A DNA stretch of 41,053 bases, from NCBI GenBank assembly GCA_002869405.1, contig PKSY01000121.1, positions 1-41,053 on the forward strand, read 5' to 3'. The position numbers and the translations under genes were made by a program. The notes beneath the pieces were generated by a model. That model saw only the letters and a list, made by a program, of their open reading frames with translations, did no database searches and was not told where the DNA came from. The stretch's first letter is position 1; the number at the start of each line of letters is the position of its first letter. Positions 35,343 to 41,030 of the stretch are shown one piece after another. The DNA comes from Marinilabiliales bacterium (GTDB lineage: Bacteria > Bacteroidota > Bacteroidia > Bacteroidales > BM520).

Positions 35343-36365
35343 TTACAAAAGCTTAATTACTTTTGTATAACATGACCTGCCTTTTACAATTTGTAAATAA
35401 AAAATCTTATGGTTACCGGGAATATCCACAGTACGGTCATATGAACCGGCTGACATTGAGAAATTCTCTTCCAGGACAGGAGTGAAATCCTCATTTAGAA
35501 GTAACACATTATAATCATCATTTGGAGTTACATTGAAGCTTAGTTTTAATGCATCATTGTGAGGTTTTCTTTCAATAGAAATATCCATAGGAGTAAAAGT
35601 GTTCTTACAGCTTTTATATCCTCGTTCATCAAAATACTTCCACTCCTCTTCACTGAGATCCCCGATTTTTACAAAATGCTCTCCTGAAGTGTAGAAGTTA
35701 AAGTGTTTGTTGTGTCCTTTTGAGTCATAGAAATAGATACCTTCATCATCAAATCCGGGTTCCGACATATAAATATGCAGGTCTTCCAGCTCTTTGCCAA
35801 GAGTTTCCATTTCCGCATTTATTCGAAGTGTAATACTGTCATTATCAGCATTTATCCATTGTATGCCATCTTTTCCCAAAGATTCCATAACAATTTTTAT
35901 CTCCTCTTCATTCACCTTAACAGCTTCCATTGCTTCATCAATAGCTGCAGAAACAGACATGGTAATTGCGCCTTTTTCATCAATGAGAATATCCTCAGAA
36001 TCAAGGTCAATAGTGATAACTTTTGCCTTTTCTCCCTTTTTCCCATCTGCTTTGACAATAATGGACCTACCTTTGACTGTATCATGCGTGGCAGTCATAA
36101 AGATCATCTGCTTACCGTCTTCATTGATTTCCACATCCATATCCATATCAATGGAGATTTCTTCATCAACACCAAGATCTTTAAGCAGGACATCAATTTC
36201 ATGCTGACCTCCTTTGATTATGGTATCAACAACAACAGTTTCCCCATTTACATTTTTAACGATTTTGACTTTTGCTTCTTTTTTCGCTTCCTGAGCAAGA
36301 GCCGAAGCAAAAAATCCCAATGAGAGGATGACGAGAATAATGGTTCGTAAATTTTTCATACGCAT
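35343..36365 (-). CDS. Secreted acidic hypothetical protein with possible T9SS-like C-terminal domain
   Basis: 340 aa; signal peptide (VILSLGFFASALAQE); Asp/Glu-rich middle; C-term DYNVLLLNEDFTPVLEENFSMSAGSYDRTVDIPGNHKIFYLQIVKGRSCYTKVIKLL. Confidence 0.7.
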   Translation of the reverse strand: MRMKNLRTIILVILSLGFFASALAQEAKKEAKVKIVKNVNGETVVVDTIIKGGQHEIDVLLKDLGVDEEISIDMDMDVEINEDGKQMIFMTATHDTVKGRSIIVKADGKKGEKAKVITIDLDSEDILIDEKGAITMSVSAAIDEAMEAVKVNEEEIKIVMESLGKDGIQWINADNDSITLRINAEMETLGKELEDLHIYMSEPGFDDEGIYFYDSKGHNKHFNFYTSGEHFVKIGDLSEEEWKYFDERGYKSCKNTFTPMDISIERKPHNDALKLSFNVTPNDDYNVLLLNEDFTPVLEENFSMSAGSYDRTVDIPGNHKIFYLQIVKGRSCYTKVIKLL

Positions 36366-36435: not shown

Positions 36436-37335
36436 TTAAGGAGTGTTAACAGGCTCTGGATTTACGAGAAATACTTTACCCTTTTTAACTCTTTCAACTT
36501 CGCATAACACCATTGAACAGCCCTCAAATTCTTTCAGAGGTTCACGGCAATCAGGAATTACCATTATACTATTATTGTAGATATCAGTTACAAAGAGTAC
36601 CCACTCGTTTCTATCATTAAAGGATTCGGTATATTCGATGCTAATGAGCTTAAATAAATATTGGTTGCCGGGTACATAGTTAGGATGTATAGGTTCCAGC
36701 GTACATCTTCCTGATTCATTTTGTTTTACTACTGTGCATTGAATTGTATCTCCCTGTTTAAAGTTATAATGGAGGTAATTCTTAACAGGCAGAATATGTG
36801 ACCGGGCATTAACATCTTTCAAAAAGAAGCACTCTCCACACTCAGGAGTGGTTTTTATATCTTCAATAAAGAATGGATAATTCTCCCCTTCGGCAAACCA
36901 CTTTGAAACTTCTGTTTCAGGGTCGGAAAGGTAAAGCTTGCCTTTTTTTATCCTGTCGACCCGACAATTCACATATTCGACAGGTTTAGCAGACAATACA
37001 AGAGTATGTACATCATTAAAAGCATCTGTGACATGCACAATAAAGCGATCATTAAACTGCTCAAAGGATAGTACACTAAAACGGAAAATTTCACCTTTAC
37101 GATACTGAGGGTTAGGAGGCTCAAGGAATATTTTTCCACTGCAGTTAATTTTATCGACCTTGCAGTGCATTGTCATTCCGGGTTCTATGGGATAATGAGT
37201 ATAAAACTCAGCATTAAGCATCTGGCGGAAGCCAAAGGGGTCTTCTAAAATCCAAAATCGGCCTCCCTCCTCGAGCGAGACCGATTTTATGACTTTAAAG
37301 TCGTAATATTTACCCTGTTCCAGTTTTCCCTTCAT
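36436..37335 (-). CDS. Hypothetical protein with internal A-B-A-B repeats, predicted OB-fold/S1-like
   Basis: 299 aa; repeat pairs KINCSGKIFLEPPNPQY/KQNESGRCTLEPIHPNY and CRVDRIKKGKLYLSDPE/CEVERVKKGKVFLVNPE; 15 nt downstream of ftsY on the same strand. Confidence 0.75.
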   Translation of the reverse strand: MKGKLEQGKYYDFKVIKSVSLEEGGRFWILEDPFGFRQMLNAEFYTHYPIEPGMTMHCKVDKINCSGKIFLEPPNPQYRKGEIFRFSVLSFEQFNDRFIVHVTDAFNDVHTLVLSAKPVEYVNCRVDRIKKGKLYLSDPETEVSKWFAEGENYPFFIEDIKTTPECGECFFLKDVNARSHILPVKNYLHYNFKQGDTIQCTVVKQNESGRCTLEPIHPNYVPGNQYLFKLISIEYTESFNDRNEWVLFVTDIYNNSIMVIPDCREPLKEFEGCSMVLCEVERVKKGKVFLVNPEPVNTP

Positions 37336-37350
37336 GAATCCGGAGTAAAA

Positions 37351-38319
37351 TTATTCTCCGAAGAGAGACTTCACAAATTCTTCTTTGTCAAATATTTGCA
37401 GGTCGGACATTTTTTCTCCGATACCGATATACTTCACCGGAACCTTAAACTGATCGGAGATTCCAATTGCGACACCGCCTTTTGCAGTTCCGTCAAGCTT
37501 GGTGAGTGCAAGGGCATTTACTTCAGTTGCGGCAGTAAACTGTTTTGCCTGTTCGATTGCGTTTTGACCTGTGGACGCATCAAGAATCAGAAGGATTTCA
37601 TGGGGTGCATCGGGAAGCACCTTTTGCATGACTTTCTTAATCTTGGAGAGTTCATTCATCAGATTAACCTTATTATGCAACCTTCCGGCAGTATCAACAA
37701 TAACCACATCAGCACCACTGGATTTCGCTGAGCTAATAGTATCAAAAGCCACCGAAGCAGGATCTGCGCCCATTCCCTGGCTTACGATCTGGACCTCTGC
37801 CCTTTGGGCCCAAATATTCAGCTGATCAACAGCTGCAGCTCTGAAAGTATCGGAAGCACCCAGCACTACTTTTTTCCCGGCAGCCTTATACTGATGCGCA
37901 AGTTTTCCAATAGTGGTGGTTTTCCCCACACCATTAACACCAACCACAAGAATTACATAAGGGTCTTCACGTTCGGGAAAGTCAAAACCACTAATAAGCT
38001 TATCATTGTCGTTTTCAGCGAGAAGAGCAGCAATTTCTTCACGAAGGATCATATTAAGCTCTGAAGTTCCAAGATATTTATCCTTAGCAACTCGTTCTTC
38101 AATGCGTTCGATAATTTTCACTGTTGTGGAAACGCCGACATCAGAGGTTATCAGTACCTCTTCCAGATTATCCAGCACTTCATCATCGACCTTGGATTTT
38201 CCGGCAACGGCTTTTGTAAGTTTGGAAAAGACACTTGTTTTAGTTTTTTCCAATCCTTTATCAAGGTCTTTTTTTATCTCTTCTTTATTCTTTTTAGAGA
38301 ATACGGACAGTAATCCCAT
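37351..38319 (-). CDS. ftsY: Signal recognition particle receptor FtsY
   Basis: 322 aa; VVGVNGVGKTTTIGKLAHQYK, GASDTFRAAAVDQL, VDTAGRLHNK, TKLDGTAKGG. Confidence 0.98.
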   Translation of the reverse strand: MGLLSVFSKKNKEEIKKDLDKGLEKTKTSVFSKLTKAVAGKSKVDDEVLDNLEEVLITSDVGVSTTVKIIERIEERVAKDKYLGTSELNMILREEIAALLAENDNDKLISGFDFPEREDPYVILVVGVNGVGKTTTIGKLAHQYKAAGKKVVLGASDTFRAAAVDQLNIWAQRAEVQIVSQGMGADPASVAFDTISSAKSSGADVVIVDTAGRLHNKVNLMNELSKIKKVMQKVLPDAPHEILLILDASTGQNAIEQAKQFTAATEVNALALTKLDGTAKGGVAIGISDQFKVPVKYIGIGEKMSDLQIFDKEEFVKSLFGE

Positions 38320-38348: not shown

Positions 38349-38384
38349 AAAAAAAGCTTTCTTCTTAGTGTGAAAAAAGCTTTT
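38349..38384. terminator. AT-rich hairpin between DUF4295 gene and ftsY
   Basis: AAAAAAAGCTTT cttcttagtgtg AAAAAAGCTTTTT inverted repeat. Confidence 0.4.
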
Positions 38385-38412
38385 TCTCCAACGTCGGATA
38401 TCGTAAAAGATA

Positions 38413-38910: not shown

Positions 38911-39819
38911 ATGAAGTGGGAAGAATTACAAAAGGGATACAGAGTTTGGCTGATGTTGGAAAAAGGTCTGTCAAAACTAACCGTCAAAGCATATATTGCT
39001 AATATACAAAGCTTTATACTATACGCCAGTAACTCAGGTATAAGCAATCCGCAAAAGATATCCAGGAAGGATCTGGAAGAATATTTGGCAAACCTAAACG
39101 AGTTATCACTTTCTGTTGCTACTCAATCGAGGATAATATCCGCATTACGAAGTTTTTTTAATTATCTGTTAATCGAAAATGAGGTCGAATCAAATCCGGC
39201 AATGCTGTTGGATCTACCTGCCAAAGGAGTACATCTTCCGGATGTTCTTTCTGTTGAAGAGGTTTTTGACATAATAGCTGCGATAGACCTGAGTAAACCC
39301 AATGGTGAACGTGACAAAGCTATTCTTGAAACGCTTTATGGATGCGGGCTCAGAGTTTCGGAATTAATAAATCTCAAAATATCAGATATCTTTTTCCGTG
39401 AAGAGTTTCTTCGTATAACCGGCAAGGGCGACAAAGAACGTCTTGTTCCCATGGGAAAAAATGCCCGTAATCAGATTCAGCGTTACCTTAAATATATACG
39501 CAACAATATCAGGGTAACTAAAGGATATGAAGATTATGTGTTTTTAAACCGTTCCGGAAAAATGTTATCCAGAGTATCGGTGTATAATATGGTAAAACAC
39601 TATACAGCATTAAGCGGAATCAGAAAAAGCGTTAGTCCTCACTCCTTCCGACACAGTTTTGCCAGCCATCTGATAGAAGGAGGCGCTGATTTGCGCGCTG
39701 TACAGCAGATGTTAGGGCATGCTTCAATAACCACAACCGAGATATATACTCATGTAAGCAACAGATATCTGCGGGACGCCATACTCAGGTTTCATCCGTT
39801 GGAAAGCGGTAAAATTTAG
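38911..39819 (+). CDS. Tyrosine recombinase XerC/XerD
   Basis: 302 aa; N-term SAM-like domain; ETLYGCGLRVSELINL, GKGDKERLVPM, SPHSFRHSFASHLIEGGADLRAVQQMLGHASITTTEIYTHV catalytic R-H-R-H-Y. Confidence 0.94.
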   Translation: MKWEELQKGYRVWLMLEKGLSKLTVKAYIANIQSFILYASNSGISNPQKISRKDLEEYLANLNELSLSVATQSRIISALRSFFNYLLIENEVESNPAMLLDLPAKGVHLPDVLSVEEVFDIIAAIDLSKPNGERDKAILETLYGCGLRVSELINLKISDIFFREEFLRITGKGDKERLVPMGKNARNQIQRYLKYIRNNIRVTKGYEDYVFLNRSGKMLSRVSVYNMVKHYTALSGIRKSVSPHSFRHSFASHLIEGGADLRAVQQMLGHASITTTEIYTHVSNRYLRDAILRFHPLESGKI

Positions 39820-40947: not shown

Positions 40948-41021
40948 GCCGATGTAGCTCAGTTGGCCAGAGCAGCTGATTTGTAATCAGCCGGTCGGCG
41001 GTTCGAATCCGTCCATCGGCT
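40948..41021 (+). tRNA. tRNA-Thr (anticodon TGT)
   Basis: GCCGATG...CATCGGC acceptor stem; anticodon arm GCTGA-TTTGTAA-TCAGC; T-loop GGCGG-TTCGAAT-CCGTC. Confidence 0.96.
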
Positions 41022-41030
41022 CTCCAAGTT

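Follow-up and report, generated by a model that had tools for sequence, protein, structure and literature searches.

A Bacteroidales-centred protein family with a predicted OB-barrel repeat, seen from a four-barrel member encoded behind ftsY

The window analysed here, a 41,053-nt stretch of contig PKSY01000121.1 from a Marinilabiliales bacterium (assembly GCA_002869405.1), carries on its minus strand a gene for a 299-aa protein, hereafter the OB gene, after the fold predicted for its product (Table 1). Its open reading frame has its ATG at 37335, and its stop codon ends at 36436; the first-pass annotation had given the same ends and had placed the gene, correctly, 15 nt behind ftsY on the same strand, which is the minus strand. 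The ftsY gene was identified by TIGR00064 (362 bits, E 1.5e-108), and the genes for DUF4295 and L33 (rpmG), identified by Pfam, lie upstream of it. Downstream of the OB gene come a secreted-looking 340-aa ORF, for which Pfam and NCBIfam gave no match, and then etfB, etfA and an acyl-CoA dehydrogenase gene; the slot of the 340-aa ORF is occupied by other ORFs in a congener, G001. A relative of the tyrosine recombinase of the window also adjoins ftsY in G001, so the recombinase is probably of the housekeeping XerC/D type.

Table 1. Features of the window, with loci of other genomes that are referred to in the text
Feature	Position	Strand	Basis or remark
Gene for 299-aa protein with four predicted OB barrels	36436..37335	(-)	ORF; relatives; AlphaFold2 model, pLDDT 93.8
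Predicted OB module A1, residues 3-79	37099..37329	(-)	Near-gapless alignment of 78 sequences
Predicted OB module B1, residues 80-140	36916..37098	(-)	hhalign to B2 and A1; model
Predicted OB module A2, residues 144-221	36673..36906	(-)	hhalign to A1; model
Predicted OB module B2, residues 222-296	36448..36672	(-)	hhalign to B1; model
ftsY (SRP receptor), upstream neighbour	37351..38319	(-)	TIGR00064
340-aa ORF	35343-36365	(-)	Signal-peptide-like N-terminus; gap of 70 nt to the OB gene
Terminator-like hairpin, 16 pairs	35302-35268	(-)	3' of the 340-aa ORF
Weak terminator-like hairpin, 16 pairs, 3 G-C	38349-38387	(-)	Between DUF4295 and ftsY
Tyrosine recombinase gene	38911-39819	(+)	PF00589 and SAM-like N-terminus
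tRNA-Thr(TGT)	40948-41022	(+)	
RSH with broken HD beside an OB gene	L039, L041-L043, L047, L071, L074, L083, L092, L093, L095, L123, L150, L159, L160, L164 and others		
Long proteins with OB pair and SLFN_AlbA_2	L209:842-4468, L210:955-4521, L218:1112-4510, L178:127-1896		

No above-threshold match to the protein was found in Pfam or NCBIfam, and sequence searches of the PDB, with the single sequence and with a profile, returned chance-level matches only; the earlier remark that no named family could be recognised in it is thus borne out, and on these sequence searches the family is a new one, absent from both Pfam and NCBIfam. The protein does not match S1 (PF00575) at the curated cut-off. 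Among 32 members of the family, weak S1-like matches were obtained, the best being to OB_RRP5 (E 0.0038); the weak OB/S1 models that appear for individual members (TEBP_OB2, S1_RRP5, OB_RRP5, S1_2, Spt6_S1 and TRAM) stand among unrelated ones. Since PHROGs gave no significant match to the family, no member was found in phages or viral contigs, and four members had no match in PADLOC, the gene is not among known phage or defence genes.

A scan of genome contigs with the single sequence found no relatives; these emerged with an alignment. Of the 393 Bacteroidales genomes sampled, 97 (roughly one in four) have strong profile matches and 99 have matches at E<=0.001, the two additional ones being SLFN-type proteins; counting all matches, 88 of the 326 good Bacteroidales genomes are positive. 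Samples at class and phylum level outside Bacteroidales yielded one weak match, itself an SLFN fusion, and the family is nearly restricted to Bacteroidales. Of the weak order-level matches (E 0.004-0.4), two that were inspected, a histidine-kinase-like ORF in G366 and Dxr/RseP-like ORFs in G311, were taken as chance and set aside. Member lengths are bimodal: A-B forms of about 150-180 aa and A-B-A-B forms of about 290-325 aa. The half-length members match the half profiles of the family and keep the same motifs (12 of 13 score better with the half-1 profile), and on a tree built from half-1 units no fewer than 11 changes between the two lengths are required, a rough count because numerous forks of that tree are unresolved. 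Conservation is highest in A1 at residues 58-78, which read C58-x-[IV]-D-K-I-N-C65-x-G67 ... E72-P73-x-x-P76-x-Y78. In the family alignment A3 (79 proteins), F13, C58, D61, N64, C65, G67, E72, P73, P76, F86 and D104 are invariant, partly by selection, as part of the motif served as a search pattern in gathering A3; in a set gathered without the pattern, a relaxed motif is found in 37 of 42 full-length and 9 of 13 short members. The end of the motif, E-P-x-x-P-x-Y, stands at the close of both A modules, where it forms the junction with B; in A2 it reads E-P-x-H-P-x-Y (residues 214-220).

The A-B-A-B repeat proposed in the first-pass annotation is real. The two halves of the protein align with a Smith-Waterman score of 184, against 29 +/- 5 for shuffled sequences, none of 2000 reaching that score, and family profiles of half 1 and half 2 align in hhalign with a probability of 100% (E 4.6e-51, 148 columns), the highest probability among 40 column-shuffled controls being 1.2%. 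When A3 was cut into the four segments of that annotation, A1 matched A2 at 99.9% and B1 matched B2 at 99.6%; the A segments also matched the B segments in all four combinations (97.2-97.9%, E 3e-13 to 3e-11; A1 with B1, 97.9%). Because the A and B alignments are significant too, the four segments are, as judged from their sequences, copies of a single unit of about 70 aa, arranged as two A-B pairs.

AlphaFold2, run with the family alignment, predicts four five-stranded barrels with a mean pLDDT of 93.8 and a pTM of 0.73, the latter meaning that the mutual placement of the barrels is less certain. In the model, A1 (pLDDT 87.3 when modelled separately) has the strand order b1-b2-b3-(helix)-b4-b5 of an OB fold, the helix after strand 3 being short; the strands of B1 are E83-94, E97-103, E109-114, E121-130 and E133-137. 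A Foldseek comparison of the whole model with the PDB gave OB folds as its named top matches (p204 HIN, Teb1, ModG/DiMop, the cold-shock domains of Unr, telomere end-binding protein and RNase R), and the best matches among viral models are S1 proteins (E 4e-9). For A1 alone the matches include PrgE, which is the best, S1 subunits of the exosome (TM about 0.6), the S1 domain of Spt6, CsaA and aIF1A; none reaches E<0.001, and some of the chains listed, being parts of large complexes, count as putative OB matches. The named OB matches of the whole model and of A1 are mostly nucleic-acid binders. The case for an OB fold is strong, although the fold is predicted, and the barrels and their structural matches uphold the OB/S1-like resemblance first noticed in the sequence alone.

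From the computed repeat, predicted fold, family, distribution and genomic contexts we infer the binding, the ligand and the process as follows. The protein would be a stand-alone, probably cytoplasmic one, with two S1-like A-B barrel pairs forming four barrels in a row. The A-B pair may be the working unit, since half-length members consist of one pair and E-P-x-x-P-x-Y joins A to B. The ligand of the barrels would be a single strand of nucleic acid, RNA (tRNA, rRNA or mRNA) being the most likely, held by the barrel faces together with the beta4-beta5 hairpin of A1 and its invariant DKINCxGK; the protein would act without catalysis in translation or the stringent response. We put at about even the chance that the protein is such an accessory, condition-dependent RNA-binding factor. 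The OB/S1 structural matches, the weak OB/S1 matches in Pfam, the loci with RSH (RelA/SpoT) genes and the OB pair of SLFN proteins point this way. However, proteins, oxyanions and small molecules are ligands of OB barrels as well, no genomic context is common to all clades, the A1 matches stay above E 0.001, and the protein of the window, with a pI of 5.7 and a net charge of -6, is weakly acidic. Nor is the family basic throughout (pI 5.4-9.5, median 8.3). Genuine S1 proteins can be acidic too, and net charge does not decide nucleic-acid binding. Four other readings were weighed, here in falling order of likelihood: a partner of RSH, a single-stranded-DNA binder, an oxyanion binder and a link to the SRP.

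The contexts of the OB gene are clade-specific, and the most scattered of them is a long RSH gene, found at the OB gene in 20 of 117 unique loci with eight family codes. On the tree this label needs 11 changes, at least 6 of them forced by well-supported branches. In most cases the RSH gene directly precedes the OB gene in the same orientation (gaps of about -38 to +109 nt), but it lies downstream in L083 and L095 and across an opposite-strand gene in L040, and the adjacency occurs with full and half-length OB members. In several of these loci the RSH gene follows flotillin-like genes, named from sequence. The four RSH copies scanned have HD_4, RelA_SpoT, TGS and ACT domains, and all 24 adjacent copies that were aligned have a broken HD pair, with Asp, His or both replaced; bifunctional-type paralogues keep LLHDVVED, where an OB-adjacent copy reads, for example, LLHNVVD. 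A Bacteroidetes RSH paralogue with a diverged HD domain has been described as RshB (PMC3153485), and by resemblance to that description, not by a tree, the adjacent copies are probably RshB. The OB protein could then be a partner or regulator of RshB, binding it or delivering RNA or tRNA to it and so tuning (p)ppGpp synthesis; the scatter of the adjacency, its persistence with both lengths of OB protein and in both gene orders, the consistently broken HD pair and the domain make-up of the RSH copies all speak for this. Yet 97 of the 117 loci, that of the window included, are not at an RSH gene; three genomes (G009, G013 and G025) have such an RSH and no OB gene; and the scattered linkage may be an ancestral gene position kept by descent, not a functional tie. 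The genome of the window has its RSH genes elsewhere, so that in this lineage the OB protein would have to act in trans or have been re-purposed, and we consider the partnership possible but unlikely.

A second context, the pncB-pncA pair, is found at 28 loci in one clade, with 3 changes on the tree, and is therefore read as an inherited position. In this clade (L054, L065, L069, L098, L107, L110, L111, L118, L124 and others) the OB gene directly follows the pair, whose functions, nicotinamidase for pncA and NAPRT for pncB, were read from sequence; it then converges on a DUF721/DciA-like gene, often with an overlap of 8-14 nt, after which comes recF (both also named from sequence). This neighbourhood bears on the possibility that the protein is a single-stranded-DNA-binding accessory of replication or repair, comparable to HIN-200, Teb1, telomere end-binding protein and PrgE. 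Several of the best structural matches do bind DNA (p204 HINab with dsDNA, E 1.5e-5; Teb1 AB; the O. nova telomere end-binding protein), and PrgE is the best match of the single domain. Against this, the whole-chain TM by query is 0.15-0.2, so that only parts superpose; the OB gene lies on the strand opposite recF; and linkage to replication or repair appears in no other context. We judge a DNA-binding role of this kind quite improbable.

The molybdenum-cofactor context comprises 20 loci of one clade with 2 changes, where the OB gene lies amid MoaC, MOSC/MoaB-like and MobA genes (named from sequence). Together with the structural matches to ModG and ModE DiMop (E 2e-3 to 1e-2), and to MopII for A1, it could suggest an oxyanion or molybdate binder of the Mop/DiMop kind. 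However, the protein of the window has no TOBE/Mop match, TOBE/Mop is absent among the 25 of 38 Pfam families listed for 32 members, and the OB gene is on the strand opposite its moa neighbours. This reading is very improbable and was rejected for its missing sequence match and its opposite-strand, single-clade context.

It is equally hard to credit a role in the SRP/FtsY pathway, in which the protein would be co-expressed with ftsY and aid co-translational targeting, a reading favoured in the window by the 15-nt same-strand gap and by the lack of a terminator-like site there in a pattern scan, but largely refuted by comparative data. In the 28 relatives L003-L030, no FtsY-like ORF occurs within roughly 1.5 kb of the OB gene. 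The congener G001, whose FtsY is 90% identical, lacks the OB gene, and its ftsY and etfB-etfA-acd lie in the same neighbourhood with other ORFs between; in four further genomes of the same taxonomic family (G003, G004, G005 and G007), which lack the OB gene too, ftsY is likewise followed by other genes. In another congener, G002, the OB gene directly precedes etfB and the contig ends before the position of ftsY. The linkage is thus seen in this genome only among those examined, with the contig of G002 stopping short. Of the three outcomes that the first-pass annotation had named as refuting, a lack of conserved linkage to ftsY is what this comparison gives, and the predicted structure and the alignment of the halves came out in favour; a functional tie to the SRP receptor is not supported. 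Co-expression with rpmG and DUF4295 is also doubtful: the weak hairpin between DUF4295 and ftsY argues against one rpmG-DUF4295-ftsY-OB transcript, though such matches are not commoner in the window than in shuffles. On the comparative data an ftsY operon was rejected, and we read the position of the OB gene after ftsY as local, not as part of a functional operon with the SRP.

To return to RNA binding and translation, an N-terminal OB pair was also found in long AlbA_2 proteins of Bacteroidia (G216, 1208 aa; G239, 1188 aa; G518, 589 aa; G144, 1132 aa), in three of which AlbA_2 (PF04326) was found by Pfam and in G144 read from sequence. The N-termini of these four sequences align with the OB family in hhalign at 96.5% (half 1) and 97.9% (half 2), the shuffled maximum being 4.3%, and on this alignment the profile matches in the four genomes are real and represent SLFN fusions. 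The three fusions tested have no match in PADLOC, and the protein of the window has no match to PF04326. AlbA_2 is the domain of the SLFN box, which in SAMD9L and Schlafens has been linked with the binding of nucleic acids and the control of translation, and in eukaryotic Schlafen/SAMD9L with RNA cleavage (PMC11221667); some prokaryotic Argonautes carry AlbA_2 and some carry OB domains (PMC6299218). A more speculative proposal, which we regard as decidedly improbable, is that the Bacteroidales di-/tetra-OB family works together with RshB within the stringent response, as an arm that senses RNA or is linked to the ribosome, and that long bacterial Schlafen (AlbA_2) proteins, too, use the OB pair to recognise nucleic acids. 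If so, one recognition module would be common to the stringent response and to Schlafen-type translation control. The family as defined here is marked by a clear motif, and its members form a natural series from one OB pair to two; it leads to two groups, the poorly understood Bacteroidales RSH paralogue with a broken HD pair and the Schlafen-type proteins. Should the protein prove to bind RNA, it would act in translation or stress as a factor peculiar to its lineage; otherwise an orphan gene still gains a predicted fold and a family.

The predicted modules resemble the S1 domain (PF00575) and ribosomal protein S1 in their five-stranded barrel, the helix between strands 3 and 4 and the tandem copies, with a TM of about 0.6 to S1 domains and E 4e-9 to viral S1 proteins; they differ from S1 families in having no above-threshold sequence match and a motif of their own, CxVDKINCxG...EPxxPxY. 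The half-length members recall ModG/DiMop, in which two OB-like domains of about 70 aa make up a chain of about 145 aa, but they fit their own half profiles and lack a TOBE/Mop sequence match. Serial OB barrels are likewise a feature of HIN-200 HINab, Teb1 and telomere end-binding protein alpha, which give the best E-values in the PDB; to these eukaryotic tandem-OB DNA binders, however, identity is about 8-14%, the whole-chain TM 0.15-0.2 and a relation in sequence undetectable. With the N-terminus of the Bacteroidia SLFN_AlbA_2 proteins the family shares the tandem A-B pair itself, together with the conserved pattern '[YF]-x-x-G-x-x-Y-x-F' at the junction and the pattern 'I-x-C-x-V ... L-x-L' at the end. 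In those fusions the pair is joined to other regions and to AlbA_2 in chains of 589-1208 aa, whereas the protein of the window consists of two OB pairs and nothing else.
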